Shown: piece after piece, positions 8,441-35,417 of the stretch
Position numbering within the stretch: position 1 is the first letter of the stretch
How the letters are laid out: the number at the start of each line of letters is the position of its first letter
Virus record (IMG/VR): IMGVR_UViG_3300042565_003770
Location: 1 to 47,802 of that record
Reading direction: 5' to 3' (one strand)
Length of the DNA stretch: 47,802 nt
Source of the DNA: a virus
Translations under genes and position numbers: made by a program
Notes under the pieces: model-generated
The model's database searches: none
What the model saw: only the letters and a program-made list of their open reading frames with translations
Told to the model about the DNA's origin: nothing

Positions 8441-9355
8441 ATGACCCACTTCATCGAAGTGACCGAGCACTCCCTGCGGGACTTGTCCCGGCGGGCGACC
8501 ACGCTCTATCTCAGCCCGGGCTCTGCTACGCCTTGCTCTCCGACGGAGGCCGTCATCAAGGTCGCGTCCGCCTTCACGGATGCGCCTCTCACGAGCGAGC
8601 ACGTTCGCCGCATCTGCGAGATGACCTACCACGACATCTTCGAGCAGTCCTTCCGTGGGAGCGCCGGGCCCGACCGCATGGTCTCGTTCGATCCCCCCGA
8701 TGCAGAGAAGGTCGCGTCCGCTATCCGGGCGCGGCGCCTCGACTCGTTCAGCGCGAAGGTGGCGAGTGCCCCCCGCGCAGGAGGCACCACGATGGACAAG
8801 AACGCTGATGCTCTGGCCGGACGCGCGCCGCCGGTACAGAACGCGTTCAGCGCGGCCATGCGTGCTGTCGCCCCCGACCGCTCTGGGATGAAGAAGGAGG
8901 CCCGCGCCTCGCTTCATCACACGCGTGTCCAGTTGAAGGAGGCGGAGACCGCCCTTCGTGTCGACCTGGCAACCGCTGTCGGCTCGGAGAAGGTGGCCTT
9001 CCTGGACCTCCTCAACGGCGCAGTACACGCCGTCCACCAGGGCGTGCCGGCGATGGCAGTGGTCACCGCGTGCCTCGAGTTCGCCAAGTCTGCAGGAGCT
9101 GAGGACGACCTCGTGCTCGAGGGTCTCGCCACGGACCTGCTGCGCGGGTTCGCCCGACGCGGCGTCGCCCTCAGCGGTGAGAAGGTCGCGAGCCTGAACG
9201 GGCTGTTCGTCAACGAGCGGCACCCCCTTCGCTCTCAGGTGATCAAGGTGGCGGAGCTTCGCGGCTACCGGATCCACGGAGAGATCGCGCTGCAGGACGT
9301 GCGCACCCAGATGCAACGTGTCGAGCGGGAGCTGCAGGATGTCCTCTACCAGTAG
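8441..9355 (+). CDS. Virion-cluster protein rich in KVAS motifs
   Basis: This 304-residue Ala-rich helical protein carries K-V-A six times: VIKVASAF (~39), AEKVASAI (~89), SAKVASAP, SEKVAFLD, GEKVASLN and VIKVAELR. This is the densest concentration of a motif seen across the plus-strand cluster. No enzymatic domain is recognised. The Shine-Dalgarno is weak (CCCGAG before ATG). It opens a long run of coupled virion genes, and its stop lies inside the next gene. A scaffold or internal virion protein is plausible; the function is unknown. Confidence 0.75.
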   Translation: MTHFIEVTEHSLRDLSRRATTLYLSPGSATPCSPTEAVIKVASAFTDAPLTSEHVRRICEMTYHDIFEQSFRGSAGPDRMVSFDPPDAEKVASAIRARRLDSFSAKVASAPRAGGTTMDKNADALAGRAPPVQNAFSAAMRAVAPDRSGMKKEARASLHHTRVQLKEAETALRVDLATAVGSEKVAFLDLLNGAVHAVHQGVPAMAVVTACLEFAKSAGAEDDLVLEGLATDLLRGFARRGVALSGEKVASLNGLFVNERHPLRSQVIKVAELRGYRIHGEIALQDVRTQMQRVERELQDVLYQ

Positions 9356-9623
9356 AGCGCCGTCGGGTCCGCTCACCGAGTGGGCCAAGTCCGCAGGCCT
9401 CATCTCCTCGGGGGTGTCGCTGGCTGGGCGTGGTCTGGCCGCGACGGGCAAGGGTGTCTGGAACGCTGCCGGGCACCTTGCCCCGAACCCGCTGATGCGG
9501 GCGGGGCTCATCGGGGCGAGCACGGTCGCTGTAGGATCCCAGGTCCCGCAGCTTGCCGGGCGGATGTCCCAGGACTACCACTACGCCAACGGCACCGCCC
9601 CTACCACCAACCGAGGATTCTGA
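9339..9623 (+). CDS. Small Gly/Ala-rich protein, possibly membrane-associated
   Basis: The start at 9339 has GGGAG seven bases upstream and overlaps the previous gene by 17 bases. The 94-residue product contains two weakly hydrophobic Gly/Ala segments (SAGLISSGVSLAGRGLAATG and AGLIGASTVAVGSQVP) and a polar C-terminus. The next gene starts immediately after its stop. No family is recognised; it probably belongs to the same assembly cluster. Confidence 0.7.
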   Translation: MSSTSRAPSGPLTEWAKSAGLISSGVSLAGRGLAATGKGVWNAAGHLAPNPLMRAGLIGASTVAVGSQVPQLAGRMSQDYHYANGTAPTTNRGF

Positions 9624-10646
9624 ATGGACACCACACTCGTCGAGATCCTGGCTGCGCACGGGTCGGGCCGTATCAGCGCCGAGGGCGCCGCCCGGAGCGT
9701 GAAGCTGGCCAGCATGCTCGGGATGAAGAAGGAGGCCCTGAATCTCCCGCCGTCGGTGATGGCGGCCCTCGGCAAGCTCAACCCCAGCCAGTCGACGCGC
9801 GACGCCATGGTCCACGGGCTCGCGGCCAGCGGTGCGATCGGTGCTGCTGGGATGGGAGTGCACGCGCTCTCTTCCGGTGCTCGCGCGCTGACCGAGAGGT
9901 ACTCCAAGAAGAAGGACCTCGAGAAGATCCTCCAGACCTTCCCGCGTCTGCGGGAGTACCCGCAGGCCGAGATCGACCTCGCGTACAACTCCATCCGGCA
10001 CATGAACCCTCACATCGCGAGCGACCCGCTCGCGGGCGGTTCCCTTCTCGGCCAGGTGCTGCGGCAGCGGGACTCGCTGGACCCCAAGACGCTGCGCATG
10101 GAGGTCGACCTCGCCGGGAACCTGCTGCGTCTCCGTCCGGAAGAGCAGCACATCGGCGAGGAGATCATGCGCGACGCCACGAGCGCCGGCATGGCGATGG
10201 GCTTCCAGGAGGCTGCCAAGGCGCGCGACCGCGCGCAGGCGGAGGCCTTCCAGTTCGGAGAGAACCAGAAGAACCGCGACGCCCAGAGTGCGCTGCAGAC
10301 CCAGCAGCTGCGTGCTCAGGGCGGCATCGCCCAGGCCAACCTGAACCTCAAGAAAAAGGAGATGGCCAACCGCGTGAAGGAGATGGCCGCTGCGCGCGCC
10401 GCCTCTGAACGGGACTCGAAGACCGAGCACGGCCGTCGAATCTCCCTCGCCGAGCGGATGCAGACCTTCCAGCGGGAGGAGAACGAGAAGGGCCACAACC
10501 GGCAGGACGAGCGCCTCTTCCCGCAGGCAATCCTGCGCGGCGCCGTACTCAACGAGTACATGGACCCGCTGACAGGCCAGTCGATCCCGCCCTCCATCGG
10601 GGACGTTCAGCATCTCTACCCCAGCCTGCGCCGCTTCATGCCCTGA
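9624..10646 (+). CDS. Virion-cluster protein with long coiled coil
   Basis: This 340-residue protein starts directly after the previous stop with GAGGA upstream. The N-terminus includes SVKLASMLGMKKEA. A Gly/Ala-rich hydrophobic segment lies near 70-90. A conserved-looking block reads KKDLEKILQTFPRLREY, then SIRHMNPHIASDPLAGGS. From about residue 190 to 300 it is an Ala/Gln/Glu/Lys coiled coil. I have a general recollection of similar proteins (R-x-x-N-P-x-x-A-x-D-P-L-x-A-x-S) next to prohead-protease-like genes in other phages, but cannot verify it here. The stop overlaps the next ATG by one base. An internal virion or scaffold role is inferred. Confidence 0.75.
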   Translation: MDTTLVEILAAHGSGRISAEGAARSVKLASMLGMKKEALNLPPSVMAALGKLNPSQSTRDAMVHGLAASGAIGAAGMGVHALSSGARALTERYSKKKDLEKILQTFPRLREYPQAEIDLAYNSIRHMNPHIASDPLAGGSLLGQVLRQRDSLDPKTLRMEVDLAGNLLRLRPEEQHIGEEIMRDATSAGMAMGFQEAAKARDRAQAEAFQFGENQKNRDAQSALQTQQLRAQGGIAQANLNLKKKEMANRVKEMAAARAASERDSKTEHGRRISLAERMQTFQREENEKGHNRQDERLFPQAILRGAVLNEYMDPLTGQSIPPSIGDVQHLYPSLRRFMP

Positions 10647-12559
10647 TGGAGAAGTACTTCCAACTCCACGGGAAGACGGCCGAGGGCCGTCCTCTGATCC
10701 ACCTGGTCGAGCCGGGCACCCGGTACGGCCTGGGTGCGTCTGCGGGGTTAGAGAAGGTCGCGGGCGGAGAGCACCTGCCGGAAGTGCTGGAGCTCATCGA
10801 GTCTATCCAGCCGCAGTCCGACCGGCTCTACCTCGTGAACAGCGCGCTGGGTGCGGGGGAGTACGTCGGGTTCAACCTCCGGGGCGACTGGTTCGGCGAG
10901 CGCGGCCTCCTCCACACGCCACCCGGCTGGGACCGGATCCCTGTGTGGGACGTGGACGCGCGGCGGCGCGCGGCGAGTTCGACCGAGCGCGCTGGCGACT
11001 GGGGGATGCTCGCGTGGGGCTACCCCACGTTCATGAACGCCCACCGGTTCCGCCACCACGTGAACAAGGACCCCGAGAAGGCGTACGGCTACGTCCTCGG
11101 TGCGTTCTGGGACGCACGCATGCACCGCGTGGTCCTTGTGTCGGAGCTGGTGCGTGAGATGTGCGCGCGCCTGGGGGCCGTCGACCTCTACGACCGGATC
11201 GCCGGCGGGGAGTTCCCGGACACCTCGATGGGCGCGAAGGTCCCGTACGATCGGTGCTCGATCTGCAACCACTACGCGCGCTCACCGGCCGACTATTGCC
11301 TGCACGTGCGCCAAGGCGCATCCCCTCCCTACGGGATGCGGGCGATCCTCGGCGACGGACGCATGTGCGGGGTCTACAACGACTACCCCCGCTTCTTCGA
11401 CGACTCGTACGTCTTCATCGGCGCGGAGCGATCCGCCAAGGTGATGGCCAACATCACCTCGCAGCTGAAGGGCACCCGCGCGTACACGAACCAGCTGTTC
11501 CAGCCGGGGGCGAGTCTCTCGACTCGTGAGGTGACCGCAGACGCTCCTGCCAGTCCGCTCGAGGAACGGAACGAGCGGCTCGGACTGGCCGTGGCAGGAG
11601 TCCTCAACTCCCGCGTTCGCGGTCCGAACGAGAGCCGTGTCAGCGAGGCCATCTCACAAGCGCTGTCGGCGGTGCCCGTCTCGAAGAATGACGCCGAGGC
11701 GAAGGCGATGCAGCACGCCGAGGAGCTGCTGCGCCGGCGCGCCGCGGTCTCCGACCACACAGTTTCGGAGGACGAGCTCCGCTTCTGGGAGGGCAAGGCG
11801 TCGAGAGACCTGAGCGATCGCCACAGCGTCACCACGGCCCAGCGGGACCGTGCAGTCGCCATCCTGCGCTCGCGCATGGACCAGATGGGCTCGACGGAGA
11901 AGCTCGGAACGCTCGCGAAGTGGGCCACCATGACGAAGCGGCTACCGGCACCGGACAGCACGCAGTACGCCCTGCTCCGCGACCACGTCGGACGCCTGAC
12001 ACCGGTTCTTCCGCAGCGCGTGTACGACGAGTGCAGTTCTTCGGTACCGGGCATGTGGCGAGGGCTGTCCGGACTGTCGGCCCTCGGGATCGTCCTTCGC
12101 CCCGAAGAGTTCCAGCAGTGCGCGCTGCGTGGCATGGGGGAGGACGCCCTGTCCGACCACTGCACGTTGGAGGGACTCCGGTTCCAGCCCACCCCGCGCG
12201 ACCCGTACCATGAGCCCCGGTGGATTCCACACATCCCCGCCACCGGTGATCTACAGCGACTCGTACAGCTGCTCGGCTCCGTCCTGCAGGGACGCTCGTT
12301 TGCTCCGAGTGCGGTGCACGTACGGATCCTGACACCACCACCGCTCGTGGGTCCTCGATCCGAGCGCGTTGTGGATGAACCGGTCTTGAATCAGGTATCT
12401 CAGATGTACAACGACTACCGGATGGGGTTGTTGGCGCGAGATGCCGACTGGAGCTATGTGCCTTTGGGTGCTCGTTCCGGTGCCTTCTCTCTCGACAGTA
12501 AGACCGCCGCCGCTGCCGATGCCGTCTCCGCACTTCTTCTTCATCTTGCACACTGGTAG
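10646..12559 (+). CDS. Probable prohead maturation protease with Zn-binding cluster
   Basis: The 637-residue protein has an N-terminal domain whose order of motifs resembles phage prohead serine proteases: a strand-rich NLRGDWFGERG region (78-87), then a histidine in YPTFMNAHRFRHH (H133), a K-x-x-G-x-V-L block (about 145-155), then a serine in FPDTSMGAKV (S194). It is followed at once by C204-x2-C207...C218-x-H220, a likely zinc site. Residues about 290-640 are a helical C-terminal region of unknown role. GLEKVAGG at 34-41 fits the recurrent cluster motif. Such proteases cut scaffold and capsid N-termini during head maturation; the position upstream of the capsid gene fits. The assignment is by motif pattern, not alignment. 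Confidence 0.65.
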   Translation: MEKYFQLHGKTAEGRPLIHLVEPGTRYGLGASAGLEKVAGGEHLPEVLELIESIQPQSDRLYLVNSALGAGEYVGFNLRGDWFGERGLLHTPPGWDRIPVWDVDARRRAASSTERAGDWGMLAWGYPTFMNAHRFRHHVNKDPEKAYGYVLGAFWDARMHRVVLVSELVREMCARLGAVDLYDRIAGGEFPDTSMGAKVPYDRCSICNHYARSPADYCLHVRQGASPPYGMRAILGDGRMCGVYNDYPRFFDDSYVFIGAERSAKVMANITSQLKGTRAYTNQLFQPGASLSTREVTADAPASPLEERNERLGLAVAGVLNSRVRGPNESRVSEAISQALSAVPVSKNDAEAKAMQHAEELLRRRAAVSDHTVSEDELRFWEGKASRDLSDRHSVTTAQRDRAVAILRSRMDQMGSTEKLGTLAKWATMTKRLPAPDSTQYALLRDHVGRLTPVLPQRVYDECSSSVPGMWRGLSGLSALGIVLRPEEFQQCALRGMGEDALSDHCTLEGLRFQPTPRDPYHEPRWIPHIPATGDLQRLVQLLGSVLQGRSFAPSAVHVRILTPPPLVGPRSERVVDEPVLNQVSQMYNDYRMGLLARDADWSYVPLGARSGAFSLDSKTAAAADAVSALLLHLAHW

Positions 12560-12575
12560 TCCGCCATCATAGGAT
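12546..12575 (+). promoter_or_regulatory. Candidate sigma70-like promoter
   Basis: TTGCAC (12546-12551) and TAGGAT (12570-12575) are separated by 18 bases, just before and within the 79-base gap ahead of the 12639 gene. The -10 fits the TAnnnT pattern; the -35 matches only its TTG core. The gap contains no ORF. Confidence 0.4.
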
Positions 12576-12638
12576 AGAGACCTTGGCGGCGACCGGCGAA
12601 AAGCCATCCCACCGAAACCCTCCTGGAGCTCGAACCGA

Positions 12639-13787
12639 ATGACCACCCTCGCCGACACCCTGGCCCAGCACAACATCAGCGCCGATGACCTGGAGAAGGC
12701 CGCGAGCGTGCGCATCTTCCAGAAGGTCGCGAGCGCCGAGAACATCGACCTCTCGCAGCTCGCGCCGGAGCAGCTCGAGGAGCTCTACGAGCACTTCGAG
12801 GCGAACGTCCTCCCGGCGATCGTCGGTGGTGGCGAGCCCACCACCGAGGCCAAGATCGCCTCGCTGAGCGAGGACGACCTCATCACCCTCTTCGACAAGC
12901 AGGCCAGCGCCGAGGGCCTCGACCTCTCCGGTGCGACCGAGGAGCAGCTCTCCGACGCGTTCGGCTTCTTCCTCGAGAACATCCTCCCGGTCATGGCCGA
13001 GAACGGCTTCGAGCCCGTCACCGCGGAGAAGAGCGCGGAGGTCGAGGAGGCCCAGGCCAAGCTCGCCGAGGCCGACATCCTCGGCCGTCAGATGGCGCGC
13101 GGCTACGCCGACGAGCTGGCCAAGATCGCCGCGACGGACGACCAGGGCAACTACTTCACGCAGGCGGCGAAGTCCAAGATCGTCGACGACGCGGGCAACG
13201 CAACGCACACTGGCCGCATGGGCAAGGTCAAGGACCTCGGGCTCTCGGCGCTGGGCAAGATGCGGCGCAACCCCAAGACCACCGCTGCTCTCGGAGTGGG
13301 AGCGCTCGCGGTAGGCGGAGGGGCGCTCGCACTCCGGAAGCACATGAAGGCCGAAAAAGAGACCACGGCCGGTGTGCAGCTCAGCGTCGAAGACGTGGAG
13401 ATCCTCAGCCAGCTCGCCGACATCGGAGACGTGGCCGGGCTACAGAAGGCCGCGAGCCTCATCAAGAACGCGGCCGCGGGTGGCGAGATGGTGCACGTCC
13501 CGGGCAAGGGGTCAGCCCACACCATCAGCAACAAGCTCCGGCAGGGCGGAGAGGTCGCCCGCAAGGCGGTCACCGGCGGCTACGGACGCGGCGTGCAGGC
13601 AGCCACGATCGGCGGCGGCGCCGCTCTCGCCGCGGGCGGCGTTGGAGCCGCTCTCGCGCACCACATGAAGTCGAAGGCCTCCGAGGGGAAGGAGGCCACG
13701 GCCGACGCCGTCATCGACGTTCTCGTCGAAGAACGGGCCACCGACCTCGCGGCTGAGTGGCTCGTGGCGAACGGCTACGGATCGTAG
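12639..13787 (+). CDS. Virion-cluster protein with acidic N-half and repeated K-A motifs
   Basis: The 382-residue protein begins with an acidic helical half built from loosely repeated units (DDLEKAASV, IFQKVASAEN, EAKIASLSE, LFDKQASAE). It then carries ARGYADELAKIAAT near 152-165, the fullest match to the cluster-wide motif. The second half has two Gly/Ala-rich hydrophobic segments (about 220-235 and 325-345) and LQKAASLIK near 270. Strong acidity with coiled helices would suit a scaffold or internal head protein. A promoter candidate precedes it. No enzyme motif is present. Confidence 0.75.
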   Translation: MTTLADTLAQHNISADDLEKAASVRIFQKVASAENIDLSQLAPEQLEELYEHFEANVLPAIVGGGEPTTEAKIASLSEDDLITLFDKQASAEGLDLSGATEEQLSDAFGFFLENILPVMAENGFEPVTAEKSAEVEEAQAKLAEADILGRQMARGYADELAKIAATDDQGNYFTQAAKSKIVDDAGNATHTGRMGKVKDLGLSALGKMRRNPKTTAALGVGALAVGGGALALRKHMKAEKETTAGVQLSVEDVEILSQLADIGDVAGLQKAASLIKNAAAGGEMVHVPGKGSAHTISNKLRQGGEVARKAVTGGYGRGVQAATIGGGAALAAGGVGAALAHHMKSKASEGKEATADAVIDVLVEERATDLAAEWLVANGYGS

Positions 13788-13792
13788 TGGTG

Positions 13793-13990
13793 ATGTCGCT
13801 GCCCCAACTGACGGCATTCGTGGACGAGGTCAGCAAGCTCGCTGGCCTCGCATCCCACCCTGCCATCGCGGGGGGCGCGACGAAGAAGCTGCTCAGCGCC
13901 ACCACTGCTCCGGCGGTGTCGGGGCTCAAGCAGATCTCCAAGGCCACTTCTCCGGCGGCCCTCACCCCTCCCCCCAACATCTTCGCCTGA
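13793..13990 (+). CDS. Small protein opening with A-F-V-D-E motif
   Basis: The chosen ATG gives a 65-residue product beginning MSLPQLTAFVDEVSKLAGLA, a near-ideal copy of the A-F-x-D-E-x-x-K-x-A motif found in larger neighbours. The rest is Ala/Pro/Thr-rich and probably disordered. A GTG at 13787 is an alternative start. It could be little more than a carrier of this motif, which makes it useful for asking what the motif does. Confidence 0.65.
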   Translation: MSLPQLTAFVDEVSKLAGLASHPAIAGGATKKLLSATTAPAVSGLKQISKATSPAALTPPPNIFA

Positions 13991-13997
13991 GGCATCC

Positions 13998-15341
13998 ATG
14001 TCGGTCCAATCCATCATCGAAGCGGCTCTGAAGAAGGCCCGCACCACGGCCGGGGGATCCGACAAAACGGCCTCGGCCGGCAGCCCGGACCTGATCAAGC
14101 TGGCGCACCAGCTGGCAGACGCCAACGAGTTCATCGCGCTGAGCGCCGCCGACGACGGCACTCCCGAGGGGCAGGTCCGGCGCAGCGTCGTCGAGAACTT
14201 CTTCAAGGGCGCCGGCGGCGAGAAGGTGCCGGGTCCCGCGCAGAGCGAGTCCCCCACGGGCACGCAGGCCGTGCCCCCGCAGTCCGGCGCCAAGAAGATC
14301 CTGCCGCTCGGCAAGGCCAGCGGCAACTCCCCCGCGGAGTCCGGAGCACCCACGGGCACGCAGGCCACCCTGGACCAGACCGGCACCAAGGCGGCGGGCA
14401 TGACCCTCCTCGACATGCTCACCAAGAACGCGGACACGGCGTCCATTCCTGGGCCCAAGCAGAGCGTCGCCGGCGAGAACGCCGCGGCTCCGCCCGCGAA
14501 GAACGAGAACTCCAACATCGAGGCCCTCCGCTCGGCCGCCGGCATGGTCGCTCTGACCAAGCGCGAGGCCAAGCTCCCGACCCGCGAGCGTCTGAAGAAG
14601 CTCTTCGCGCACGCCGGTGACACGGGCCCCTCCAGCGCCGCAGCCCAGGCTGCGTTCCCCAACGCCTACGCCAAAGGCGGGATGAAGGTGGCGGCGATCG
14701 CCTTCACGGACGCCGGTCACGAGTACGAGCGCGCAACGGCGCGCGCGGAGTCCAATGCCCGCAGCCGCGCGATCAACGCGGACCGGGAATACTCCCGCGA
14801 GCAGCCCCTTCTCGGGCACCTCCAGGGCGTAGGGATGAGCGAGATCGGCCACCGTCTCGCGGCACGGCATGCCGAATACCGGGAGCGCAAGCACGGCGAC
14901 AAGCGCCAGTCGTTGAACCCGTTCGGCGGCTTCCTCACCAAGACCAAGGCCGAACAAGCCGAGAAGAAGGAGGCGTCCATCGCCTTCACGGACGCCGGGC
15001 ACAGGCGCAACGCCGAGTACGGACGTGCCATCGAGGAGGCGCACACGGGTCACCGGCACGCGGCTGACACCTACGACAAGGAAATGCCGATTCTCGCCGG
15101 CGGTACGGGAACGATCCATCGCCTCATCGCACGTCACGGCGCGTACCAGGCACGGAAGCACGACGACAAGCGTCAGGCCCTCAACCCGTTCGGCGGCTTC
15201 CTCACCAAGACCAAGGCCGAGGAGGACGAGAAGAAGGCGTCCCTCTACGACTACGCCGAGCTCGCCGAGATCGCCGAGGCCGGTGAGCTCGGTGACGAGG
15301 CCCGTGCCATCATCCTCTTCGCCGAGAGCCTCTCAGTCTGA
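13998..15341 (+). CDS. Virion-cluster protein with tandem duplicated domain
   Basis: GAGG-CATCC-ATG supports the start. The 447-residue protein has a disordered N-half in which P-T-G-T-Q recurs (SPTGTQAVP, APTGTQATL). Residues 234-327 and 328-415 are two copies of one domain. Both start IAFTDAGH, contain an R-L-x-A-R-H segment, and end in LNPFGGFLTKTKAE. The recurrent K-x-A motif appears as SDKTASA and GGMKVAA. The C-terminus is acidic (LAEIAEAGELGDEARAI). The stop overlaps the next ATG by one base. Function is unknown; a structural or internal virion role is inferred. Confidence 0.75.
   Translation: MSVQSIIEAALKKARTTAGGSDKTASAGSPDLIKLAHQLADANEFIALSAADDGTPEGQVRRSVVENFFKGAGGEKVPGPAQSESPTGTQAVPPQSGAKKILPLGKASGNSPAESGAPTGTQATLDQTGTKAAGMTLLDMLTKNADTASIPGPKQSVAGENAAAPPAKNENSNIEALRSAAGMVALTKREAKLPTRERLKKLFAHAGDTGPSSAAAQAAFPNAYAKGGMKVAAIAFTDAGHEYERATARAESNARSRAINADREYSREQPLLGHLQGVGMSEIGHRLAARHAEYRERKHGDKRQSLNPFGGFLTKTKAEQAEKKEASIAFTDAGHRRNAEYGRAIEEAHTGHRHAADTYDKEMPILAGGTGTIHRLIARHGAYQARKHDDKRQALNPFGGFLTKTKAEEDEKKASLYDYAELAEIAEAGELGDEARAIILFAESLSV
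14697..15242 (+). repeat. Tandem in-frame domain duplication (94 + 88 codons)
   Basis: Unit 1 spans 14697-14978 and unit 2 spans 14979-15242. Both begin ATCGCCTTCACGGACGCCGG and end with a nearly identical stretch encoding the NPFGGFLTKTKAE region, followed by a Lys/Glu run and an Ala-Ser junction. The middle parts have diverged. Strong DNA identity at both ends suggests recent duplication or purifying selection on the ends. Confidence 0.9.
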
Positions 15342-15574
15342 TGCGCCAGATCCTCGCCAACATCGAGAAGTGTGCGGGTGCGGACGACCCTCGGGCCGCC
15401 GCGTTCCGTACACTCTCTGTGCTCCCCAAGACGGCATCGATCGATGACCGCTCTTCGGAGACGGAAGAGGAAGCCCGAGCACGTCGCGTAGGCGAGTTCC
15501 TTCGCCGACGGGCCCCGAGCGGGCTACTGAACGGTTCAGCATCTCCCACCCCTCCGAAGGACACGACGCCATGA
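15341..15574 (+). CDS. Small unknown protein, 77 residues
   Basis: It is coupled at both ends: ATG overlaps the previous TGA, and its TGA overlaps the next ATG. The product begins MRQILANIEKCAGADDP and includes VLPKTASIDD, two loose matches to the cluster motif, and ends in a Pro/Thr-rich tail. No function is recognised. Confidence 0.7.
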   Translation: MRQILANIEKCAGADDPRAAAFRTLSVLPKTASIDDRSSETEEEARARRVGEFLRRRAPSGLLNGSASPTPPKDTTP

Positions 15575-15957
15575 GCTCCCACGATATCGACGGTGTTGCT
15601 GCCGTTGCGGTCCAGTCCGCCCGCGCCCTCCGTGAGTTGGCGACCAAGTGCGCCTCTCTGGAGACCGAGAACGTCTCCCTCCGCGAGAAGGTGGCCGGCT
15701 ACGAGCGCGGGGAGCAGGTGCGCGTGCTCGCGAAAGAGATGGAGGACCGGGGGCTCTCTCCCGAGCTCAGCATGGACGAGAAGATCGCGTCCATCGCGAA
15801 GTACCCGGACCTCGGCCTGGTGCGCGAATCCATCAAGCTCGCCGGCGGCGGGCGTCTGGACATGGCCCGCGTGGCCGACGAGTCCACGAGCTCCTCGCGG
15901 GATGCGGCCTCGGATTCCTTCACCCAGTTCTGCCTCACCGGGCAGCCTTCTTCCTGA
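15571..15957 (+). CDS. Coiled-coil virion-cluster protein
   Basis: This 128-residue protein has an N-terminal coiled coil (SARALRELATKCASLETENV, about 16-55, then REKVAGYERG), followed by a compact helical block (LAKEMEDRGLSPEL, MDEKIASIAKYPDLGLV, ESIKLAGGG) and a Ser-rich tail. Three segments fit the recurrent (D/E)xxK-x-A pattern. It is the last gene before the capsid transcription unit. A small scaffold or head-assembly factor is possible from position; no motif proves it. Confidence 0.7.
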   Translation: MSSHDIDGVAAVAVQSARALRELATKCASLETENVSLREKVAGYERGEQVRVLAKEMEDRGLSPELSMDEKIASIAKYPDLGLVRESIKLAGGGRLDMARVADESTSSSRDAASDSFTQFCLTGQPSS

Positions 15958-15975
15958 CCCCTCCACCGCAATCCC

Positions 15976-16004
15976 TTGACCCTGCGTTACAGTAGGGGCA
16001 GAAT
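15976..16004 (+). promoter_or_regulatory. Candidate sigma70-like promoter for capsid genes
   Basis: TTGACC (15976-15981) and CAGAAT (15999-16004) are 17 bases apart, matching five and four of six consensus positions. The site lies in the 68-base gap before the decoration and capsid genes, where a separate strong promoter would be expected. Confidence 0.5.
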
Positions 16005-16025
16005 CTCCCCACCGAGGAAATGAAC

Positions 16026-16562: not shown

Positions 16563-16563
16563 T

Positions 16564-16586
16564 CTCCTCAGCTACGCGCTGAGGGG
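16564..16586 (+). terminator. Hairpin between decoration and capsid genes
   Basis: CCTCAGC (16566-16572) pairs with GCTGAGG (16578-16584) around a TACGC loop, with weaker extension at the base. No U-tract follows, so it may act as an mRNA-stabilising or attenuating structure rather than a full terminator. The next 50 bases are a pyrimidine-rich leader to the capsid start. Confidence 0.55.
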
Positions 16587-16638
16587 CATGCCTCCTACTC
16601 CACCCCCCACCAGACCACTACTTCTTCTGAGGATCGCC

Positions 16639-28578: not shown

Positions 28579-28584
28579 GATGTA

Positions 28585-28610
28585 GGAGGGGGCGGGCAGC
28601 CGCCCCCTCC
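28585..28610 (+). terminator. Hairpin terminator before tail tube gene
   Basis: GGAGGGGGCGG and CCGCCCCCTCC form a perfect 11-bp stem with a GCAG loop, seven bases after the stop codon at 28578. It is followed by a pyrimidine-rich stretch. It ends the sheath unit. Confidence 0.85.
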
Positions 28611-28653
28611 GCCTCTCTCGACCACCTTCCCACTCTTCGACAAGGCAGAACCC

Positions 28654-29355
28654 ATGGCGACACTTTCGGAATGGAGCCCGTACGATCAGTACGTGCAGGG
28701 AGGAATGGTCGACGGCCGCTACATGAACGCGGCCTACACGCTCATCGCAGCCGGCCCTCCCCGACTGGCGAACGTAGGCGGACCCGCCTTCCTCGCGGCG
28801 GCGTTCGCGGCTGGCAGCTCGGCAGGTGATCAGATCGCCTACCCGGTCGGCGTGGTGCAGAGCTTCAGCCTCGGCCACTCGATGCAGCTCAACCGCTTCT
28901 TCGAGATCGGGTCCGAGCGCAGCTACTTCGTGCCCGGGCGCGTGATGGGGCAGCTCTCGCTGTCCCGCATCATGTACCACGGTCCGTCGCTGCTACGCGT
29001 GCTCTACGCCTACTACCAGGACCTCGTCCCGAAGACGGTCGTTCCGGCCCTCTTCCCGAACGTCGGTGCCGCCACCGTGGCCAACCCCCACGACGTCGTC
29101 ATCCCGCCCGGGTACGAGAACATCTACCTCAACCTGGCCTCGGACCTCTTCAAGCAGCCCATCGGACTGCTCACGATGTTCAAGGACAGCAACGAGGACA
29201 CGATGGCCTCTTACTACTTCGAGTCCTGCTACGTCCCGCAGCACAGCCTCTCCACCGACGCGATGGGCACGGTCATGCAGGAGCAGGTCGGCATCCAGTT
29301 CGAGCGGATGATCCCCATCGCCACCACGGTCGTCGGCCTGATCAGCGGCCTGTAG
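28654..29355 (+). CDS. Probable tail tube protein
   Basis: The 233-residue protein is beta-rich, lacks long charged helices, and carries the strand-turn-strand pattern VGVVQSFSLGHSMQLNRFFE followed by FVPGRVMGQLSLSRIMYHG, typical of T4 gp19-like tube proteins, in which the first hairpin is followed by a G-x-x-x-G-x-x-S/T-L-x-R strand. It lies two genes after the sheath and between terminators, as expected for an abundant product. The Shine-Dalgarno is modest (AAGG). The assignment is by pattern and gene order. Confidence 0.8.
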   Translation: MATLSEWSPYDQYVQGGMVDGRYMNAAYTLIAAGPPRLANVGGPAFLAAAFAAGSSAGDQIAYPVGVVQSFSLGHSMQLNRFFEIGSERSYFVPGRVMGQLSLSRIMYHGPSLLRVLYAYYQDLVPKTVVPALFPNVGAATVANPHDVVIPPGYENIYLNLASDLFKQPIGLLTMFKDSNEDTMASYYFESCYVPQHSLSTDAMGTVMQEQVGIQFERMIPIATTVVGLISGL

Positions 29356-29364: not shown

Positions 29365-31839
29365 ATGCCGTTCGCCAGTGAGGCCCAGCGCCGCCTGCTC
29401 TGGGCCAAACACCCGGATATCGCCAGGCGCTGGGCCCACGAGCCCGGCGCGAAGAACCGCGACCTCCCTCCGCACGTCAAGGAGGGCGCACGGCTCTTCT
29501 CCGAGCTCGGGCTGAAGCTCGCGGACATGATGCCAGCACCCCCGCAGTCCTCGCTGCGGCCAGGGGTGGAGTTCCGCCCTCACCAGGAGGACGCCATCCA
29601 GAAGGCGATGCGGCAGAACGGCAACCTGCTGCTCAGCCACCCTGTCGGCTCCGGCAAGACCGTGACGGCCATCGGTGCGTTCGACCGCCTGCGCCAGGCC
29701 GGGAAGGCCAACCGCGCGCTCATCGTCACCCCCGCGTCCCTGCGCAAGAACTTCACCGACGAGGGCGTCCACAAGTTCACCCACGACCACTGCACGGTGT
29801 TCGGAAACACACAGGAAGTGGCCGACGGGCAGGGCGTGAGCATCGACCAGCCGGACCCGAAGTCGCGCTACCACGTGGTCAGCTACGACCTCTTCCGAGA
29901 GCGCCCGGAGGCCTACATCCGGGCTGCTGGCGCCGACACCGTCATCTACGACGAGCTCCACAAGATCAAGAACATCGGCATCACGGGCAAGGCGCTGAAG
30001 GACGCCCGGAAGTTCCACCGCAACTTCATCGGGCTCACTGGCTCCATCGTCAGCAACACCCCCGCAGACCTGGTGCCGCTCATCGACGCCATGACGGACG
30101 GGAAGCACCACCTCGGCACGAAGGAGAACTTCGAGCGCCGGTTCATGACGGACGACGGGAAGCTGCAGAACACGCCCATCGTGCGCATGCTGCTGAACCC
30201 CTACATCCACCACGTCGACGCCGCGACGAGCGCCGGCAACATGCCCGTGAAGGAGATGGAGACCGTCAAGGTCGACATGTCTCCCGAGCAGCAGGAGCTC
30301 TACCAGTACGTCGTGGGCAAGATGGACCCCATCACCGCCCTGAAGTTCCGGTTCGGCACGTCGAAGCTCAAGACCAACGACGTCAACAACATCTTCAGCA
30401 AGATGACCCAGGCGCGTCAGGTCTCGAACGCCATCCACACGGTCAACAAGTCCGTGACGCTCTCGGAGTCCGCCGAGCGTTCGCCTAAGATCAGGCGGAT
30501 CCTGGATGACGTCGAGGACCACCTCAAGACCACGCCTGACGGGCAGGTCATCATCTACTCGAACATGATCCAGGGCGGCCTCGACGTCATCGGACAGGGC
30601 CTTCGGGACCGCGGCATCGACCACGGCATCTTCATGGGCAAGGGTCAGCCCGGCTCCACAGAGAAGAGCCGCACCCAGGCCGTCTCGGACTACCAGGCAG
30701 GGCGGAAGAAGGTCATCCTCCTCTCCTCCGCAGGCGGCGAGGGGCTGAACCTCGGCAACACCACCTTCGTGGCCAACGTGGACGGGCACTTCAACCCGGA
30801 GAAGATCCACCAGGCTGAGGCCCGCGGTGTTCGTGCAGGTGGCCAGGCGCACCGCCCCGAGGCCGAACGAAAGGTCATCGTCCGGAGGTACGTCACGAGG
30901 GTCCCGCTCTCGAAGACGCAGGTCCTCAAGGACACGATGAACCTCATCTCCCCCAACCACATGATCAACCGCGTCATGGAGGGGCAGCCTGTCCTCTACA
31001 ACCCCCTTCGACGCGAGCGCTCGCCGGATGAGTGGGCGTACGAGGTGGCCGGGCTGAAGGACGAGCGGAACAAGGCACTCCGCGGCAACCTCGACAAGAG
31101 CGGGGAGGCCCCGCTGCCCGACAACATCGAGGACATGCTGGACCTCCTCGAGGAGGGTGTCGTCGACCGCGCTGAGGATCCGGCACTCCCGCTGGTGAAG
31201 GAGGCCGCAGCGAAGAAGGACGTGAAGCAGGCGCGCCTCGCCGCGGCTCGCATCCCGATGCAGCCCCACCGCCTCGTCAAGTCCGACCGCATCGTGATGA
31301 ACGCGTACATGAAAGAGTTCGCCCCCTACCTCGAGGAGGCCGTAGACCCGACGCAGGTCGATCTGCCGGCCGACAAGCAGCTCCGCGAGCAGGAGTACAT
31401 CGACGCGCTTCGGGCCTACTACAGGGAGGCCGCCAAGAACACCGGCGGGTCCAGCTCGAAGGCGCTGACGGACGCGGAGCGGAAGAAGGAGGTCTGGAAG
31501 GACACGGCGCTCGTCGGCACGGTCGGCGGGATCTACGGGGGACTGCACGGCACGGTCCAGGCAGCAGCAGGTGGGATCCCCCTCAAGCACGTGCCCCTGT
31601 TAGGACTGGGCGGTGCGCTGTTCGTGGGTGGAACCCTGGCTGGCACCACCCTCTGGGACGGCATGCGCAACCCCGCGTTCAACACCCCCGCCGCACGTGC
31701 GCGGAAGACCAACAAGCTGACGGACGCCCAGATGGTCCAGCTCCTCCGCGGCCTCGAGGTGCAGCAGAAGGAGGAGAAGACCCACCGCTTCGCCGTCGGC
31801 GCCGCCCCTCGCGCAACCACCGCCTCGATCCCCTCGTGA
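29365..31839 (+). CDS. SNF2-type helicase in the virion cluster
   Basis: The 824-residue protein starts after AGGAG-CCGCTC. It opens with FASEAQRRLLWAKHPDIARRW (shown in part: SEAQRRLLWAKHPDIA), a short module recurrent in phage proteins, then LFSELGLKLADM, a version of the cluster motif. The SF2/SNF2 core has motif I HPVGSGKT (92-99), DELH box VIYDELHK (about 192-199), LTGSIVSN, VIIYSN, SSAGGEGLNLG (about 453-463) and the R-x-G-Q arginine motif. Two hydrophobic Gly-rich segments follow (about 715-765). It lacks an obvious methylase. A helicase among tail genes suggests an injected protein that protects or remodels entering DNA, as P1 DarB does; this is inference. Confidence 0.85.
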   Translation: MPFASEAQRRLLWAKHPDIARRWAHEPGAKNRDLPPHVKEGARLFSELGLKLADMMPAPPQSSLRPGVEFRPHQEDAIQKAMRQNGNLLLSHPVGSGKTVTAIGAFDRLRQAGKANRALIVTPASLRKNFTDEGVHKFTHDHCTVFGNTQEVADGQGVSIDQPDPKSRYHVVSYDLFRERPEAYIRAAGADTVIYDELHKIKNIGITGKALKDARKFHRNFIGLTGSIVSNTPADLVPLIDAMTDGKHHLGTKENFERRFMTDDGKLQNTPIVRMLLNPYIHHVDAATSAGNMPVKEMETVKVDMSPEQQELYQYVVGKMDPITALKFRFGTSKLKTNDVNNIFSKMTQARQVSNAIHTVNKSVTLSESAERSPKIRRILDDVEDHLKTTPDGQVIIYSNMIQGGLDVIGQGLRDRGIDHGIFMGKGQPGSTEKSRTQAVSDYQAGRKKVILLSSAGGEGLNLGNTTFVANVDGHFNPEKIHQAEARGVRAGGQAHRPEAERKVIVRRYVTRVPLSKTQVLKDTMNLISPNHMINRVMEGQPVLYNPLRRERSPDEWAYEVAGLKDERNKALRGNLDKSGEAPLPDNIEDMLDLLEEGVVDRAEDPALPLVKEAAAKKDVKQARLAAARIPMQPHRLVKSDRIVMNAYMKEFAPYLEEAVDPTQVDLPADKQLREQEYIDALRAYYREAAKNTGGSSSKALTDAERKKEVWKDTALVGTVGGIYGGLHGTVQAAAGGIPLKHVPLLGLGGALFVGGTLAGTTLWDGMRNPAFNTPAARARKTNKLTDAQMVQLLRGLEVQQKEEKTHRFAVGAAPRATTASIPS

Positions 31840-31845: not shown

Positions 31846-32952
31846 ATGATCCAGCAACAGTGGGCCTCCTTTAGCGACGAGATCCTGAAGACCGCGGCGA
31901 CGCGCCAGGTGAAGGAGATGCGGAAGCTCTACGAGGGGACCAAGTCCTCCGACCCGCGTGTAGCGGCCGCAAGCGAGGCGAAGTTGAAGGGGCTCGCGCA
32001 GCGGCTCTACGGCGCCGGCGTGCAGAAGGACAGTCCTGGTGGGATCCAGGCCGACCGCAAGTTGCAGATGCTGGGCCGGGGGAACGAGGGCGTGGCGGTG
32101 CCGGTGCTCGGACCGCACGGGGTGGAGGTACGCAAGCAGTACGACCCCAAGTCCCAGCTCTGGAGTCCGTCGATGCAGAAGGACAAGGCGGAGCTCCTTC
32201 GGAACTCGAACCCCAAGCACGTCGCGCAGCTTTACGGCCACCACTCCTCTCCGGACTTCGACATCCACCGCATGGAGCTCGTGAAGGGGAAGGACCTCAA
32301 GCAGGCGATCAAGGAGCTGCCCGACGGAGGGCGTTTCCCTTCTGCGGAGGGAAATCGGCTCGGGGAGCAGGTGCGCGGTGTCGTACCGCACCTCGACGCT
32401 GCGGCACACAAGGCGGGCCTGTCCGGACACCGCGACGCTGCCTGGCACGAGGGAGGGCAGTTCAAGTACAACCCCGGCAACATCAAGATCCAGCCGGACG
32501 GGACGGCGAAGGTCATCGACGTGCTGCCCACGCGCCAAGTCCCTGCGAACTACCACACTGCTCCCGGACGCCTGGAGCCGATGGACGCGCACAAGGCGCA
32601 CTTCCCTGGTGGGATTCCGGCCCAACACGGGGAGACCCCGCTCCTCGACCTGACCAAGAAGCTGGGTCCCGGCTCCAGGCAGGCACCCAAAGGCATCCCG
32701 ATGAGTGCGTCTAAGCTGCCGCCCGGAACGCCCCTCCCGGCGACGGGAGTGCCCATCCGCGGTCCCGCTCCTCCGCGCCCGGGCACCCCGCAGATCAAGT
32801 CGTTCATGGGTCGCTGGGGCCCGGGGCTAAGAAAGGCAGCCCCGTGGGCTGCCGGGGCTGCTGGTGTCGCGGGAGCAGGGCTACTCGCGCATCACTTCCT
32901 GAAGCGGAACGTCCCGGAGGAGCGTGGAGCCGGCGGCCCAGCGCCGGTGTAG
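31846..32952 (+). CDS. Kinase-like virion-cluster protein
   Basis: The 368-residue protein begins WASFSDEILKTAA (6-18), a close copy of the A-F-x-D-E-x-x-K-x-A motif. Residues about 72-228 read like a divergent protein-kinase fold: a Gly-loop LGRGNEGVAVPVLG (76-89), a candidate lysine VRKQYD (K97), a hinge-like MELVKGKDLKQAIK (143-156), a catalytic-loop-like HEGGQFKYNPGNIKI (201-215) and VIDV (223-226) where DFG would be. The rest is Pro-rich with one C-terminal membrane-like helix (about 335-352). The canonical HRD and DFG are not clean, so it may be a pseudokinase. The 3' end overlaps an antisense gene. Confidence 0.7.
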   Translation: MIQQQWASFSDEILKTAATRQVKEMRKLYEGTKSSDPRVAAASEAKLKGLAQRLYGAGVQKDSPGGIQADRKLQMLGRGNEGVAVPVLGPHGVEVRKQYDPKSQLWSPSMQKDKAELLRNSNPKHVAQLYGHHSSPDFDIHRMELVKGKDLKQAIKELPDGGRFPSAEGNRLGEQVRGVVPHLDAAAHKAGLSGHRDAAWHEGGQFKYNPGNIKIQPDGTAKVIDVLPTRQVPANYHTAPGRLEPMDAHKAHFPGGIPAQHGETPLLDLTKKLGPGSRQAPKGIPMSASKLPPGTPLPATGVPIRGPAPPRPGTPQIKSFMGRWGPGLRKAAPWAAGAAGVAGAGLLAHHFLKRNVPEERGAGGPAPV

Positions 32953-33106: not shown

Positions 33107-33143
33107 ACCAGGAACCGAGGTAAGTACCTCCCCAGGAGCGCGC

Positions 33144-35417
33144 ATGGATGACCTCGCAGACCTCGTCAGCAAGACCGTGCACTGGTCTGCGTTCGGTGAC
33201 GAGATCCGGAAGCACGCCGGCACCGTCGAGGTCGCCCACAACTTCCACCCCGTCACAGTGCAGCCCCCGCAGGCGAAGCGCGCGAAGTTCCCGTTCACCG
33301 GCTTCATCGACTTCCAGGGCCTGAAGATCGACGTCGAGAACAAGAAGGGCGAATACCGTCGCGGCAAGGACAGGGACGGCCACGAGTGGAAGTGCCTCAT
33401 GCACGCCCACTACGGCGAGATCCGGAACACCGAGGGCACCGACGGGGACAAGCTCGACGTCTACGTCGGCCCGAACCACGACTCCAGCCTCGTGGTGGTC
33501 GTACGGCAGCACAAGCCGGATACCGGCGCCTTCGACGAGGACAAGGTGATGGTCGGCTTCGACTCTGTGGAGGAGGCCGTCGGCGCCTACAAGAAGCAGT
33601 ACGACAAACCCGGGTTCTACAAGGACGGAGACTACAAAGCCCTGCCCATCGGAGAGTTCTGGCGCTGGGTCCACGATCGCGACAACCACGGGAAGAAGGT
33701 GGCCGGAGTCCTGGACGGACTCACGGTGAAGACGGCCGCGGATCTCCCTGACATCGTTCGCCCGGCGATCCGCCCGGAGATCCGGGAGTTCGCCCTGCAC
33801 CCGCACCTCCAGAAGGGCCTCGCGGGAGCTGCCGCACTCGGAGGGCTGGCCGCAGGGTACCGTGCCCACCGGAACGCGCGGGCGAAGGAGCTGGAGACGG
33901 GGGAGCCCAGCACGGGCAAGCACGTGCTGGAGGGCGGAGCCGCCGGCGTCCTCGGAGGAGCAGGACTCGGAGCAGCGGCAGCGGTCGGCTCCAAGGACGC
34001 GCTCGAGAACGTCAAGCGGCAGGCCGCGCCCAGCGCCAAGTACGTGGCGCAGATGGCGCAGAAGCTCCGCGCTGACGGCAAGTCGATGCCGGAGATCAAG
34101 GCGATCCTCAGGGGACGCGGGTTCGCCCAGCACTTCCAGAACGCCCACATCGGCTACCAGGCACACGTCCTCCAGGGGAAGATCCACACCGGAAAGGCCG
34201 CACTGGTGGGCGCTGCCGGTCTCGGCCTGCTGGGCGCAGGGGCCGCCGGCCTCAACGCTCACTTCAACAAGGACGAGAACCGCTCTGACCTCCGGGCCAC
34301 GCAGCGCCGTCTCCAGGTTGGGCGCTACGCTCCACCCAAGGAGGCGTCTGCCGGCGCCGGCGCGAACGTGCTCGCGGATCTCGGGGACGCCGCGCGAACC
34401 GGCGCGAAGGATCTCACCATCGCGGCTCGGAACAAGATGCAGAAGACGTCGCCGCCCCACTACGCGCCCCCGCGTCCGCACGTGCAGGTGGCGCCCTCTC
34501 CCTGGTCGAAGGGTGCCGGGGTGCTGGCCAAGCTCGCTGGCTCCAAGCTCCGCATGGCCACGCAGATCGCGGAGGAGGCACCTGGTCGATGGGCCATGTC
34601 CCTGGGGGGCCGCGTCATCGGACGCATGTCGACATCAGGGAACCAGATCCGGGGAGTGCGCATCCTCGACCCCAAGCTGCAGGGGTTGGGACTGGGCCGG
34701 AAGTTCTACGGAGAAGTGGCGCGTCGTATGCCCGGACAGACGCTGCACAGTGACATGCAGGTTTCGGACAAGGCGACCCGCCTCTGGGACTCGTTACGCG
34801 CCGAGCACGGCTGGAAGCCGACAATACATCCGTGGACGCACCGCGAAGCGGAAGGAGGGGTGGTCTCAACTCTCACAAAGCAGCCTTGGCACGAGGGACA
34901 TACTCCGGAGATCGACGCTCTCCGTGCTGGCTCCGGATTCGCCCGCCCGCCTGCGTACTCGGCATCGCTACCTGCCGCAAGCAAGGTCGCCTGCGCCTTC
35001 TCGCAGGAAAAGCGGGCCACCGAGCTGCCGGGCGTCGGTGATGAGGGAGAGCGCCCGCACGTGCCTGGGCTGAAGACGCCACGCCTGGCCACGCCGCGCC
35101 TGAACCCCGACCAGGGGAAGCACATCCCGGTCAACCCGTTCCGCGGCAACTGGCGGAAGCTGGGCGGAGCCGAAACTGTCGCTCACGAGGCCGGAGAGGC
35201 CGCTCGCAACCTGGTGGCGGCCATTCCAGAGGACGTGAAGCACGGCCTCCTTGGGGCAGCCCTCGTGGGCGCCGGCGCTCTGGGGCTAAAGGCGACCGCC
35301 TCCCAGGCGATCAACCCCCGCCCTGAAGGTGTCGGCTTAGGCGCTGGAGCGCGAGCCGGCCAGAAGGTTCTGACGCTCGGACTCTCTCGGGCTGGTTCGG
35401 GGCCCGTGCAGTATTAG
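33144..35417 (+). CDS. Multidomain virion protein: pyrophosphatase-like plus GNAT-like
   Basis: AGGAG-CGCGC-ATG marks the start of a 757-residue protein. Residues 14-26 (WSAFGDEIRKHAG) carry the cluster motif. Residues about 50-185 match the phage inorganic-pyrophosphatase-like domain pattern: GFIDFQGLKIDVENKKGEYR, DGHEWKCLMHAHYGEI, TEGTDGDKLDVYVGP, then FDEDKVMVGF. Hydrophobic Gly/Ala segments follow near 225-245 and 350-375. Around 480-570 there is a GNAT-acetyltransferase-like block with VRILDPKLQGLGLGRKFYGE, the acetyl-CoA loop pattern. The C-terminus is Pro-rich with SKVACAF. It looks like a multi-tool internal virion protein, perhaps ejected with DNA; activity is unproven. Its last 107 bases overlap the convergent gene. 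Confidence 0.8.
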   Translation: MDDLADLVSKTVHWSAFGDEIRKHAGTVEVAHNFHPVTVQPPQAKRAKFPFTGFIDFQGLKIDVENKKGEYRRGKDRDGHEWKCLMHAHYGEIRNTEGTDGDKLDVYVGPNHDSSLVVVVRQHKPDTGAFDEDKVMVGFDSVEEAVGAYKKQYDKPGFYKDGDYKALPIGEFWRWVHDRDNHGKKVAGVLDGLTVKTAADLPDIVRPAIRPEIREFALHPHLQKGLAGAAALGGLAAGYRAHRNARAKELETGEPSTGKHVLEGGAAGVLGGAGLGAAAAVGSKDALENVKRQAAPSAKYVAQMAQKLRADGKSMPEIKAILRGRGFAQHFQNAHIGYQAHVLQGKIHTGKAALVGAAGLGLLGAGAAGLNAHFNKDENRSDLRATQRRLQVGRYAPPKEASAGAGANVLADLGDAARTGAKDLTIAARNKMQKTSPPHYAPPRPHVQVAPSPWSKGAGVLAKLAGSKLRMATQIAEEAPGRWAMSLGGRVIGRMSTSGNQIRGVRILDPKLQGLGLGRKFYGEVARRMPGQTLHSDMQVSDKATRLWDSLRAEHGWKPTIHPWTHREAEGGVVSTLTKQPWHEGHTPEIDALRAGSGFARPPAYSASLPAASKVACAFSQEKRATELPGVGDEGERPHVPGLKTPRLATPRLNPDQGKHIPVNPFRGNWRKLGGAETVAHEAGEAARNLVAAIPEDVKHGLLGAALVGAGALGLKATASQAINPRPEGVGLGAGARAGQKVLTLGLSRAGSGPVQY

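Follow-up and report, generated by a model that had tools for sequence, protein, structure and literature searches.

What function is served by a short peptide that recurs in otherwise unrelated proteins of one phage? The question is raised by a linear virus sequence of 47,802 bases (IMG/VR record IMGVR_UViG_3300042565_003770), the whole of which is called the window here. A preliminary description of its sequence noted the motif (D/E)xxK(V/I/L)A in many plus-strand proteins encoded between positions 8441 and 35417, and proposed three functions for it: cleavage by a maturation protease, packaging into the virion, or docking to a capsid or scaffold protein. From the analysis presented here it is likely that a gp21-like head protease of new specificity recognizes the core of the motif, K-x-A, as its site, and that an extended N-terminal form is a capsid-targeting propeptide resembling the capsid-targeting sequence (CTS) of phage T4. 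The K-x-A sites would then be cut and the tagged proteins packaged. Among the three proposals the protease site is favored, and a packaging tag or docking peptide suits a subclass of the carriers, but a signal common to virion proteins in general does not hold.

Enrichment of the Motif in the Window

The 23 plus-strand proteins of positions 8441-35417 were compared with 500 composition-preserving shuffles of each protein. K[VIL]A appears 27 times against 9.0 expected, KxAS 19 against 2.8, K[VIL]A[SG] 15 against 1.5, and [DE]E[VIL]xKxA 4 against 0.08, and none of the 500 shuffles was as high for any of these patterns. The pattern first described, (D/E)xxK(V/I/L)A, also exceeds every shuffle in the test that had been proposed for it (5 against 1.0) and is real, although it defines the motif poorly. 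All of the copies listed in the preliminary description are present, and the 8441 protein contains exactly the six K-V-A sites counted there. Controls with R in place of K or with altered order (R[VIL]A, [VIL]KA, and A[VIL]K) fall below expectation in the same plus-strand proteins.

K[VIL]A (6 against 5.0) and KxAS (1 against 1.3) are at expectation in the 24 other proteins of the window, and there is thus no general enrichment; [DE]K[VIL]A is found 3 times against 0.7 in these proteins, with 16 of the 500 shuffles as high. The earlier statement that minus-strand proteins lack comparable sites was nearly right, but a few exist, for example EKLAS in 42878-44935.

The signal in the plus-strand proteins is uneven and clusters in the head module and the late enzyme genes. 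The head module and its surroundings are as follows.

4656-6521, plus strand: terminase (phrog_675, E 1e-52)
8441-17805, plus strand: head module, including the predicted head maturation protease and the major capsid protein
8441-9355, plus strand: head-module protein in which K-V-A occurs six times (K codons at 8558, 8708, 8756, 8990, 9182, and 9245)
9624-10646, plus strand: head-module protein with a single K-x-A, in SVKLASM (its K codon at 9702); orthologues in 31 loci
10646-12559, plus strand: predicted prohead (head maturation) protease of 637 residues (H137/H138 at 11054-11059; S194-M-G from 11225)
10745-10768, plus strand: K-x-A site GLEKVAGG (K37, A39), upstream of the protease domain
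12639-13787, plus strand: repeat-containing head-module protein with several K-x-A sites and a putative scaffold role
13104-13136, plus strand: internal tag-like motif YADELAKIAAT (K162) of the 12639 protein
13998-15341, plus strand: head-module protein with repeats and K-x-A sites, among them KTAS from 14064 and KVAA from 14685
15341-15574, plus strand: small head-module protein with sites EKCAG and PKTAS
15571-15957, plus strand: head-module protein in which K-x-A occurs four times (K codons at 15646, 15688, 15781, and 15835)
16639-17805, plus strand: major capsid protein (ATG at 16639; phrog_2522, E 0.005; related to the annotated major capsid protein of phage Arash)
16714-16734, plus strand: N-terminal capsid site TTKTAAE, with a predicted cut after KTA
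17894-29355, plus strand: tail-side gene block, used as an internal contrast, with zero to three K-x-A per protein except in the small gene 21409
21409-21843, plus strand: small protein with C-terminal NEKVASVYL and a hydrophobic segment; nine orthologues, each with at least one site

No K-x-A occurs in the products of 16020, 17894, 19214, 20538, and 28654. Those of 18719 and 21840 hold one each and that of 19705 holds two, while three are found in 27175 (467 residues) and three in 22648 (1495 residues).

Site Profile and Conservation

A search with the capsid protein gave 36 viral loci, several of them near-identical, and orthologues of most of the head and tail proteins were recovered. A near relative of the window is a contig of 182,777 bases with an identical capsid protein. 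Sites over the 36 loci were counted in open reading frames taken from the first possible start, some of which are over-extended; the 8441 orthologues in 29 loci hold six to nine K[VILAT]A sites apiece. For 16 chosen loci, 615 K-x-A sites were found in 98 head proteins (16.9 per 1000 residues) against 74 in 97 tail-side proteins, the product of gene 16020 included (2.15 per 1000 residues).

With the Ala of the motif numbered P1, the head sites prefer F, M, or L at P5, E at P4 (3.2-fold), and V, T, or I at P2 (2.3- to 2.9-fold). After the Ala, S is preferred at P1′ (5.0-fold; 213 of 615), A at P2′ (2.4-fold), and E at P3′ (2.2-fold). The core is K-x-A and the full form roughly [FML]-E-K-[VTI]-A followed by S-A-E, with the predicted cut between A and S. 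Such a profile, in which P3 and P1 are fixed, is laid out like a protease site.

Conservation was measured pairwise in 11 to 16 sequences per family, a selection among the 36 loci meant to leave out near-duplicates. All seven head families agree: K belonging to the motif is retained in 48-84% of the comparisons (other K, 15-64%) and its A in 54-86% (other A, 33-48%), but the middle residue in only 17-43%. Conservation of K and A followed no consistent pattern in seven tail-side families, one of which, 22648, is somewhat higher on both (K, 0.41 against 0.36; A, 0.63 against 0.43). Nine near-complete contigs (1413 called genes; 52-67% GC) each contain KxAS 28-48 times against 9.5-17 expected, and the R-for-K control is near expectation in eight of the nine. 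When the motif was not chosen beforehand, the a-x-b pair that ranked first was K-x-A for 13 of the 16 head sets, and for none of the 16 did it end in E. Taken as a whole, the motif is genuine, clearly more frequent than chance would give, and under evolutionary constraint.

The motif might have been a by-product of an Ala- and Lys-rich, helical, high-GC composition that gives E-K-x-A repeats, and the carriers are in fact Ala-rich and partly repetitive (12639 and 13998). Shuffles of the same composition, however, fall short of the observed counts, the R-for-K and order controls give fewer matches than expected in the window, and across the nine contigs R-for-K stays close to expectation, with contig G008 slightly high. 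The signal holds at 52-67% GC and in Arash (see below), K and A are conserved with a free middle residue, and an equal density was not seen in the tail or metabolic proteins tested. Such an origin is highly improbable, and composition or chance alone was ruled out by the shuffles and the R-for-K and order controls.

Three side observations were made. L-x-E, the T4-like pair, ranks second in the head sets of L007 and L022 (29 against 12.6 and 27 against 14.3, respectively). The N-terminal half of the 12639 family is built from tandem units LFEKxAxAEGIDL...ENVLP, each of which starts with a K-x-A site. Two proteins outside the window (G001:C1:106919-108109 and G001:C1:128976-130496) contain 8 and 6 K-x-A, respectively, with similar multi-site proteins in G002 and G003; they have no PHROG match at E 0.01 and are further candidate head or ejected proteins.

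Capsid Protein and Predicted Protease

A K-x-A site is located just upstream of the conserved region of the capsid protein in 36 of 36 loci, some near-identical and others down to 37% identity, and its middle residue varies among T, C, V, E, L, I, and M. The capsid N-terminus and the boundary of the protease domain are often cut in such phages.

The product of 10646-12559 matches phrog_18299, "head maturation protease", over residues 118-223 (E 4e-5) and has no Pfam match at E 0.1. Its gene lies between those of the terminase and the capsid protein. H137, H138, and S194-M-G are invariant in 23 aligned proteases and are the putative catalytic residues. K37 and A39 are conserved in at least 90% of the 23 sequences within an otherwise variable N-terminal segment. 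A second K-x-A directly follows the catalytic region in 13 of 16 aligned relatives and is absent from the window, L002, L024, and L004. Among the more distant proteases obtained from the tag scan described below, 25 were tried (loci L345-L349 not included) and 22 were readable; K-x-A is N-terminal to the domain in 22 of 22, a figure without a chance control.

The structural model of the protease matched phage G gp19 (E 1e-5) and a "prohead protease" (E 4e-3) in a viral library. A sequence search of the PDB gave 0 matches, a protease scan of the genome contigs confirmed none, and tblastn with the window protease matched 10 of 50,697 phage records. The protease genes of three contigs from the tag scan, G014 (L356:750-5774), G037 (L357:738-4757), and G015 (L358:537-3362), contain in-frame intein-like insertions. 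Intein_splicing and LAGLIDADG_3 are matched in three stretches each in G014; the Hint/homing-endonuclease matches of G037 and G015 are weaker, some under the curated cutoff.

K162 of the putative scaffold 12639 is invariant in 23 of 23 sequences. The surrounding YADELAKIAAT lies inside a long predicted helix (residues 129-184), with block pLDDT values of about 87 to 70 over the motif. The sites at K29, K72, and K87 of the same model end at, or at most two residues from, a helix C-terminus.

Extended N-Terminal Tag

The sequence [AS]-F-x-D-E-h-x-K-x-A is present near the N-terminus of the window proteins 13793, 31846, and 33144, and a weaker copy is found in 29365.

13793-13990, plus strand: 65-residue protein with N-terminal tag AFVDEVSKLAG at 13814-13846
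29365-31839, plus strand: SNF2-type helicase (Pfam SNF2-rel_dom, E 5e-17; Helicase_C, E 2e-11; phrog_62, E 4e-57)
29494-29526, plus strand: weak tag copy LFSELGLKLAD, preceding the helicase region (phrog_62 match from residue 61)
31846-32952, plus strand: kinase-like protein (weak match to phrog_2361 serine-threonine kinase, E 0.0026)
31867-31899, plus strand: predicted N-terminal tag SFSDEILKTAA of the kinase-like protein
33144-35417, plus strand: inorganic pyrophosphatase (InPase)-domain protein (InPase at residues 52-176, Pfam E 3e-39; DarB-like phrog_10089, E 1e-23)
33189-33221, plus strand: N-terminal tag AFGDEIRKHAG of the 33144 protein, with more K-x-A after the InPase domain (K185 and K196)

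Homologues of the 13793 protein read VFAGEVGKLAG in L024 and AFSEELRKHAAS in L002. For the tag region of 33144, the orthologue in G002 has AFADELGKQAA, and a partial relative from G009 has SFGDELQKLGA. Relatives of the helicase and the InPase protein were found in three loci each, and those of the kinase-like protein in a same-species contig only. The 1413 called genes of the nine contigs contain the tag motif 20 times against 0.8 expected, and 12 of the 20 are at most 40 residues from the start.

IMG/VR was scanned with a DNA pattern for F-x-D-E-L-x-K-I-A. At least 120 stretches were returned, a set neither complete nor random; the reversed-order control gave 68 in all. All tag-match figures from here on are among the matches listed. 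The distance from the first possible start could be used for 134 of 141 tag matches and 46 of 68 control matches. This measure was relied on since the start choice used in the body-family grouping favors starts near the motif. The tag is at most 40 residues from the first possible start in 93 of 134 (median 13), against 0 of 46 for the control (median 708), and within 70 residues in 108 of 134 and 5 of 46, respectively. The residue before F, which is outside the scanned pattern, is A, S, or G in 88%.

The 133 unique tag-match proteins were grouped into 83 body families by comparison of 128 bodies, and 24 Pfam families were recognized among 125 of the proteins. Motif position was checked in 20 of the longer Pfam-recognized proteins. 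An N-terminal motif was confirmed individually in an InPase protein (residue 5), an SNF2 helicase (residue 9), and a MazG-domain protein (residue 11). In a second SNF2 protein the motif is at residue 77, just ahead of the helicase region, and in a transketolase it is at residue 25, inside the domain. Other Pfam families among the matches include Nudix, C92, and NlpC/P60. T4-like portals and DNA ligases were dropped as tagged proteins, the motif being internal in both.

The tag closes with L-[EQ]-K-I-A, the same residues as P5 to P1 of the consensus for head sites; the Ser preference is missing after the tag, where a cut is predicted. The presence of the same motif within 12639 suggests that the tags imitate a scaffold helix.

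Co-occurrence of Tag and Protease

The protease profile was applied to 86 loci (85 records) among the at least 120 listed, and to 50 of the 68 control loci. It matches 60 of the 85 tag-match records (28 of 35 and 32 of 50) and 0 of 50 control records. Among tag-match records of at least 100 kb, 36 of 40 contain the protease.

Distant Cultured Relatives

The capsid protein of the window is matched at 24% identity in Salmonella phage Arash and at 22% in Vibrio phage D69. K-x-A is the top pair in both head modules, with 46 against 21.4 expected in Arash and 51 against 23.0 in D69. The capsid sites are LVKEAGAA and LTKEAGAA, and the N-terminal protease sites are LTKQAA and LEKSAA, for Arash and D69, respectively.

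The Arash paper lists 116 virion proteins (PMC10585845), which allowed virion and non-virion proteins to be compared as the preliminary description had suggested. The 250 coding sequences of the genome were placed, and eight of the nine proteins of head module 218-226 were counted (gp222 crosses a stretch boundary); proteins with 2-4 peptides by mass spectrometry (MS) are in none of the compared groups. The head module contains 39 K-x-A against 17.9 expected. No enrichment was found in the tail (25 against 35.1), in the 44 further proteins detected by MS with 5 or more peptides (94 against 102.1), or in 136 proteins outside the MS table (72 against 80.7). One protein outside the head module, gp242, is high when taken alone (8 against 3.6, p 0.02). 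The proposed excess in virion proteins is borne out for the head module but not for the tail and the other detected proteins. A tag of all virion proteins was ruled out on these grounds: tail proteins largely lack K-x-A in the window and its relatives, the Arash tail is not enriched, and enrichment in Arash is confined to the head module among the groups compared.

Weighing of Cleavage and Loading

Several observations weigh against cleavage at K-x-A and loading by the tag. No protease match was obtained in 25 of the 85 tag-match records, 4 of them at least 100 kb, and just two of the 50 control records exceed 100 kb, which leaves phage size not fully controlled. The N-terminal tags have little P1′ preference (A 18%, E 13%, S 7%), unlike the head sites. 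Beyond residue 40 are 28 of 133 tag-pattern matches. Internal motifs occur in two T4-like portals (residue 387, within the portal domain), two DNA ligases (residues 491 and 573, past the ligase domains), a recombinase (537), and a tape-measure protein (270); such internal matches probably arose by chance or serve another use. The distant head sets L028, L036, and L037, of two to three proteins each, have a top pair other than K-x-A, and the R-for-K control is slightly high in G008 (53 against 42; maximum of 40 shuffles, 51). The fold match of the protease is weak: the top PDB match by Foldseek is T4 gp21 at E 0.024 for a model with a mean pLDDT of 60.7, and VIA ranks gp21 second (Z 3.4), under an unrelated dehydrogenase (3.8). 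With a weak match and a moderate model, the gp21-type fold is a hint and not proof. Many K-x-A sites of 12639 fall in helices of the model (mean pLDDT 65.4, pTM 0.33), where they do not appear obviously accessible to a protease.

Peptides that would indicate cleavage were found for none of these phages, and the words "cleav" and "protease" are absent from the main text of the Arash paper (PMC10585845). The multi-site Arash proteins gp220 and gp223 are listed there at 96% and 100% coverage in virions, respectively, so that fragments, if any, were not lost. The coverage column is hard to trust, since several proteins with 2 unique peptides are given 100% (PMC10585845, Table 2).

These observations bear on an alternative in which K-x-A and the tag are uncleaved helical docking motifs, whose carriers bind one groove on a shared capsid, scaffold, or protease. 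The tag and several sites are in predicted helices, the tag looks amphipathic and has little P1′ preference, and it is conserved inside the scaffold-like 12639. The head sites are nevertheless protease-like, with Ser next in 213 of 615 and with preferences flanking A on both sides, and sites precede the conserved capsid region and the protease domain, which are frequent places of cutting. Even with the high coverage listed for the multi-site proteins in Arash virions (PMC10585845), docking without cleavage is an unlikely explanation.

The tag could also localize proteins to an intracellular phage compartment, the replisome, or a membrane and merely resemble a head site. Several tagged proteins are DNA or nucleotide enzymes, five plus-strand window proteins, mostly carriers, have hydrophobic Gly/Ala-rich segments, and the presence of tagged proteins in virions is something that we infer. 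The tag, however, ends in the L-[EQ]-K-I-A of the head-site consensus, is found inside the conserved head-module protein 12639, and co-occurs with the head protease. Localization within the cell is quite improbable as its role.

Proposed Function and Comparison with Known Systems

The preferred reading, K-x-A as a head-protease site and the long form as a CTS-like loading peptide, is based on the match of tag and site and on the precedents of T4 CTS and P1 DarB. The product of 10646-12559 would be a prohead protease that recognizes K-x-A and cuts after the Ala (P3 = K, P1 = A, P1′ preferably S) during head maturation. It would cut the capsid N-terminus, its own N-terminal extension, and, repeatedly, the scaffold-like proteins 8441, 12639, 13998, and 15571. 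The extended form, (A/S)-F-x-D-E-(L/I/V)-(E/Q)-K-(I)-A, would be an amphipathic-helix-like tag that, like the T4 CTS, brings its carriers (the helicase, the kinase-like and pyrophosphatase proteins, and small effectors) into the head during assembly. The same protease would then clip the tag and free the mature cargo for ejection.

The CTS is all that the T-even internal proteins share (PMC3012670), and in T4 it is removed by proteolysis; the T4 and giant-phage proteases cut after Glu (PMC5694885). Like the window tag as read here, it is a short N-terminal peptide common to unrelated packaged proteins, in T4 the internal proteins and Alt, and is removed by the head protease, gp21 (PMC3012670, PMC5694885). 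The sequences differ: T4 IPIII starts with MKTYQEFIAEASVV in translation, the CTS-type sequence is MKTYQEFIAEA, and the first 15 residues of IPIII contain no K-x-A. The cut residue is Glu in T4 and is predicted to be the Ala after K-x here, and the CTS is found on T-even internal proteins whereas the tag is found on 83 body families in many phages.

SPN3US gp245 cuts A-X-E with Ser favored at P1′ (PMC10052503). SPN3US gp245 and phiKZ gp175 share with the present sites the P3-x-P1 layout and, in SPN3US, Ser at P1′, and they cut capsid or inner head proteins as well as themselves. They differ by cutting after Glu (PMC5694885), with Lys at P3 and Ala at P1 here, and the enzymes may not be close relatives.

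In phage P1, the N-terminal 30 residues of the large defense protein DarB suffice for capsid targeting (PMC9024508). The window proteins 29365 and 33144 match the DarB-like PHROG 10089, and F-x-D-E-L-x-K-I-A is absent from the first 50 residues of DarB. The reported N-terminus of the mature P1 capsid protein places the cut after ...NKAMLE, the context being read from the sequence (PMC9024508). P1 was rejected as a K-x-A phage on this cut and on the DarB N-terminus, which lacks the tag. Polyvalent proteins contain pyrophosphatase and helicase domains that are predicted to act early after transfer (PMC5512222). They differ in that the window domains are spread over several shorter proteins, each with its own tag and with K-x-A beside the domains. 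A search of the open literature gave nothing on the tag spellings, a Lys/Ala maturation-protease site, or capsid targeting in huge phages, by which absence in print is not established.

Herpesvirus assemblin is a maturation protease that cuts an Ala-Ser bond. Herpesvirus proteases appear at Z 2.0-2.3 among many unrelated VIA rows, and their specificity differs from that proposed here.

If K-x-A is cut as proposed, the head protease would have a Lys-x-Ala specificity, unlike the Glu-cutting enzymes of T4, SPN3US, and phiKZ; the P1 capsid protein is also cut after Glu. Proteins injected with phage DNA act first in infection, in anti-restriction and host takeover, and usually cannot be distinguished by sequence from the products of other phage genes. 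As a loading signal, the tag would mark injected proteins in many metagenomic phage genomes, list candidate early effectors, and provide a short packaging peptide for protein delivery. With little more than even confidence, a wider proposal can be made for a large group of phages, most of them uncultured and many with genomes of 100-210 kb: one portable N-terminal code, [AS]-F-x-D-E-L-x-K-I-A, a scaffold-helix mimic ending in the K-x-A of a protease with new specificity, may load dozens of effector families for injection. The injected proteome of such phages would then be readable from sequence.

Other Features of the Window

The start of the helicase (29365-29440) reads MPFASEAQRRLLWAKHPDIARRWAHE and weakly matches phrog_1375 (E 0.018); it is presumably a recurrent phage N-terminal module. 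Residues of about 465-590 of the 33144 protein resemble a GNAT acetyltransferase by eye only (LQGLGLGRKFYGEVARRM), with no Pfam match at E 0.1; InPase is the only Pfam domain found in this protein. A relative of this stretch (residues 455-628) with 44% identity occurs within a helicase-type protein of G009 (G009:C1:52662-55487), which suggests that modules are swapped between carriers.

Gly/Ala-rich hydrophobic segments of 19 residues are found in 5 of the 23 plus-strand proteins (12639-13787, 19705-20544, 21409-21843, 29365-31839, and 33144-35417), with two in the 12639 protein. Mostly on carriers of K-x-A or the tag, they may hint at passage of ejected proteins through a membrane. ThyX-like and RNase HII-like sequences were recognized by eye only at 41018 and 2095, respectively. 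On the minus strand, 42878-46262 encodes a protein with a VWA-like domain and, nearby, one that resembles an AAA+ ATPase; by eye the two are a pair of the MoxR-VWA type.

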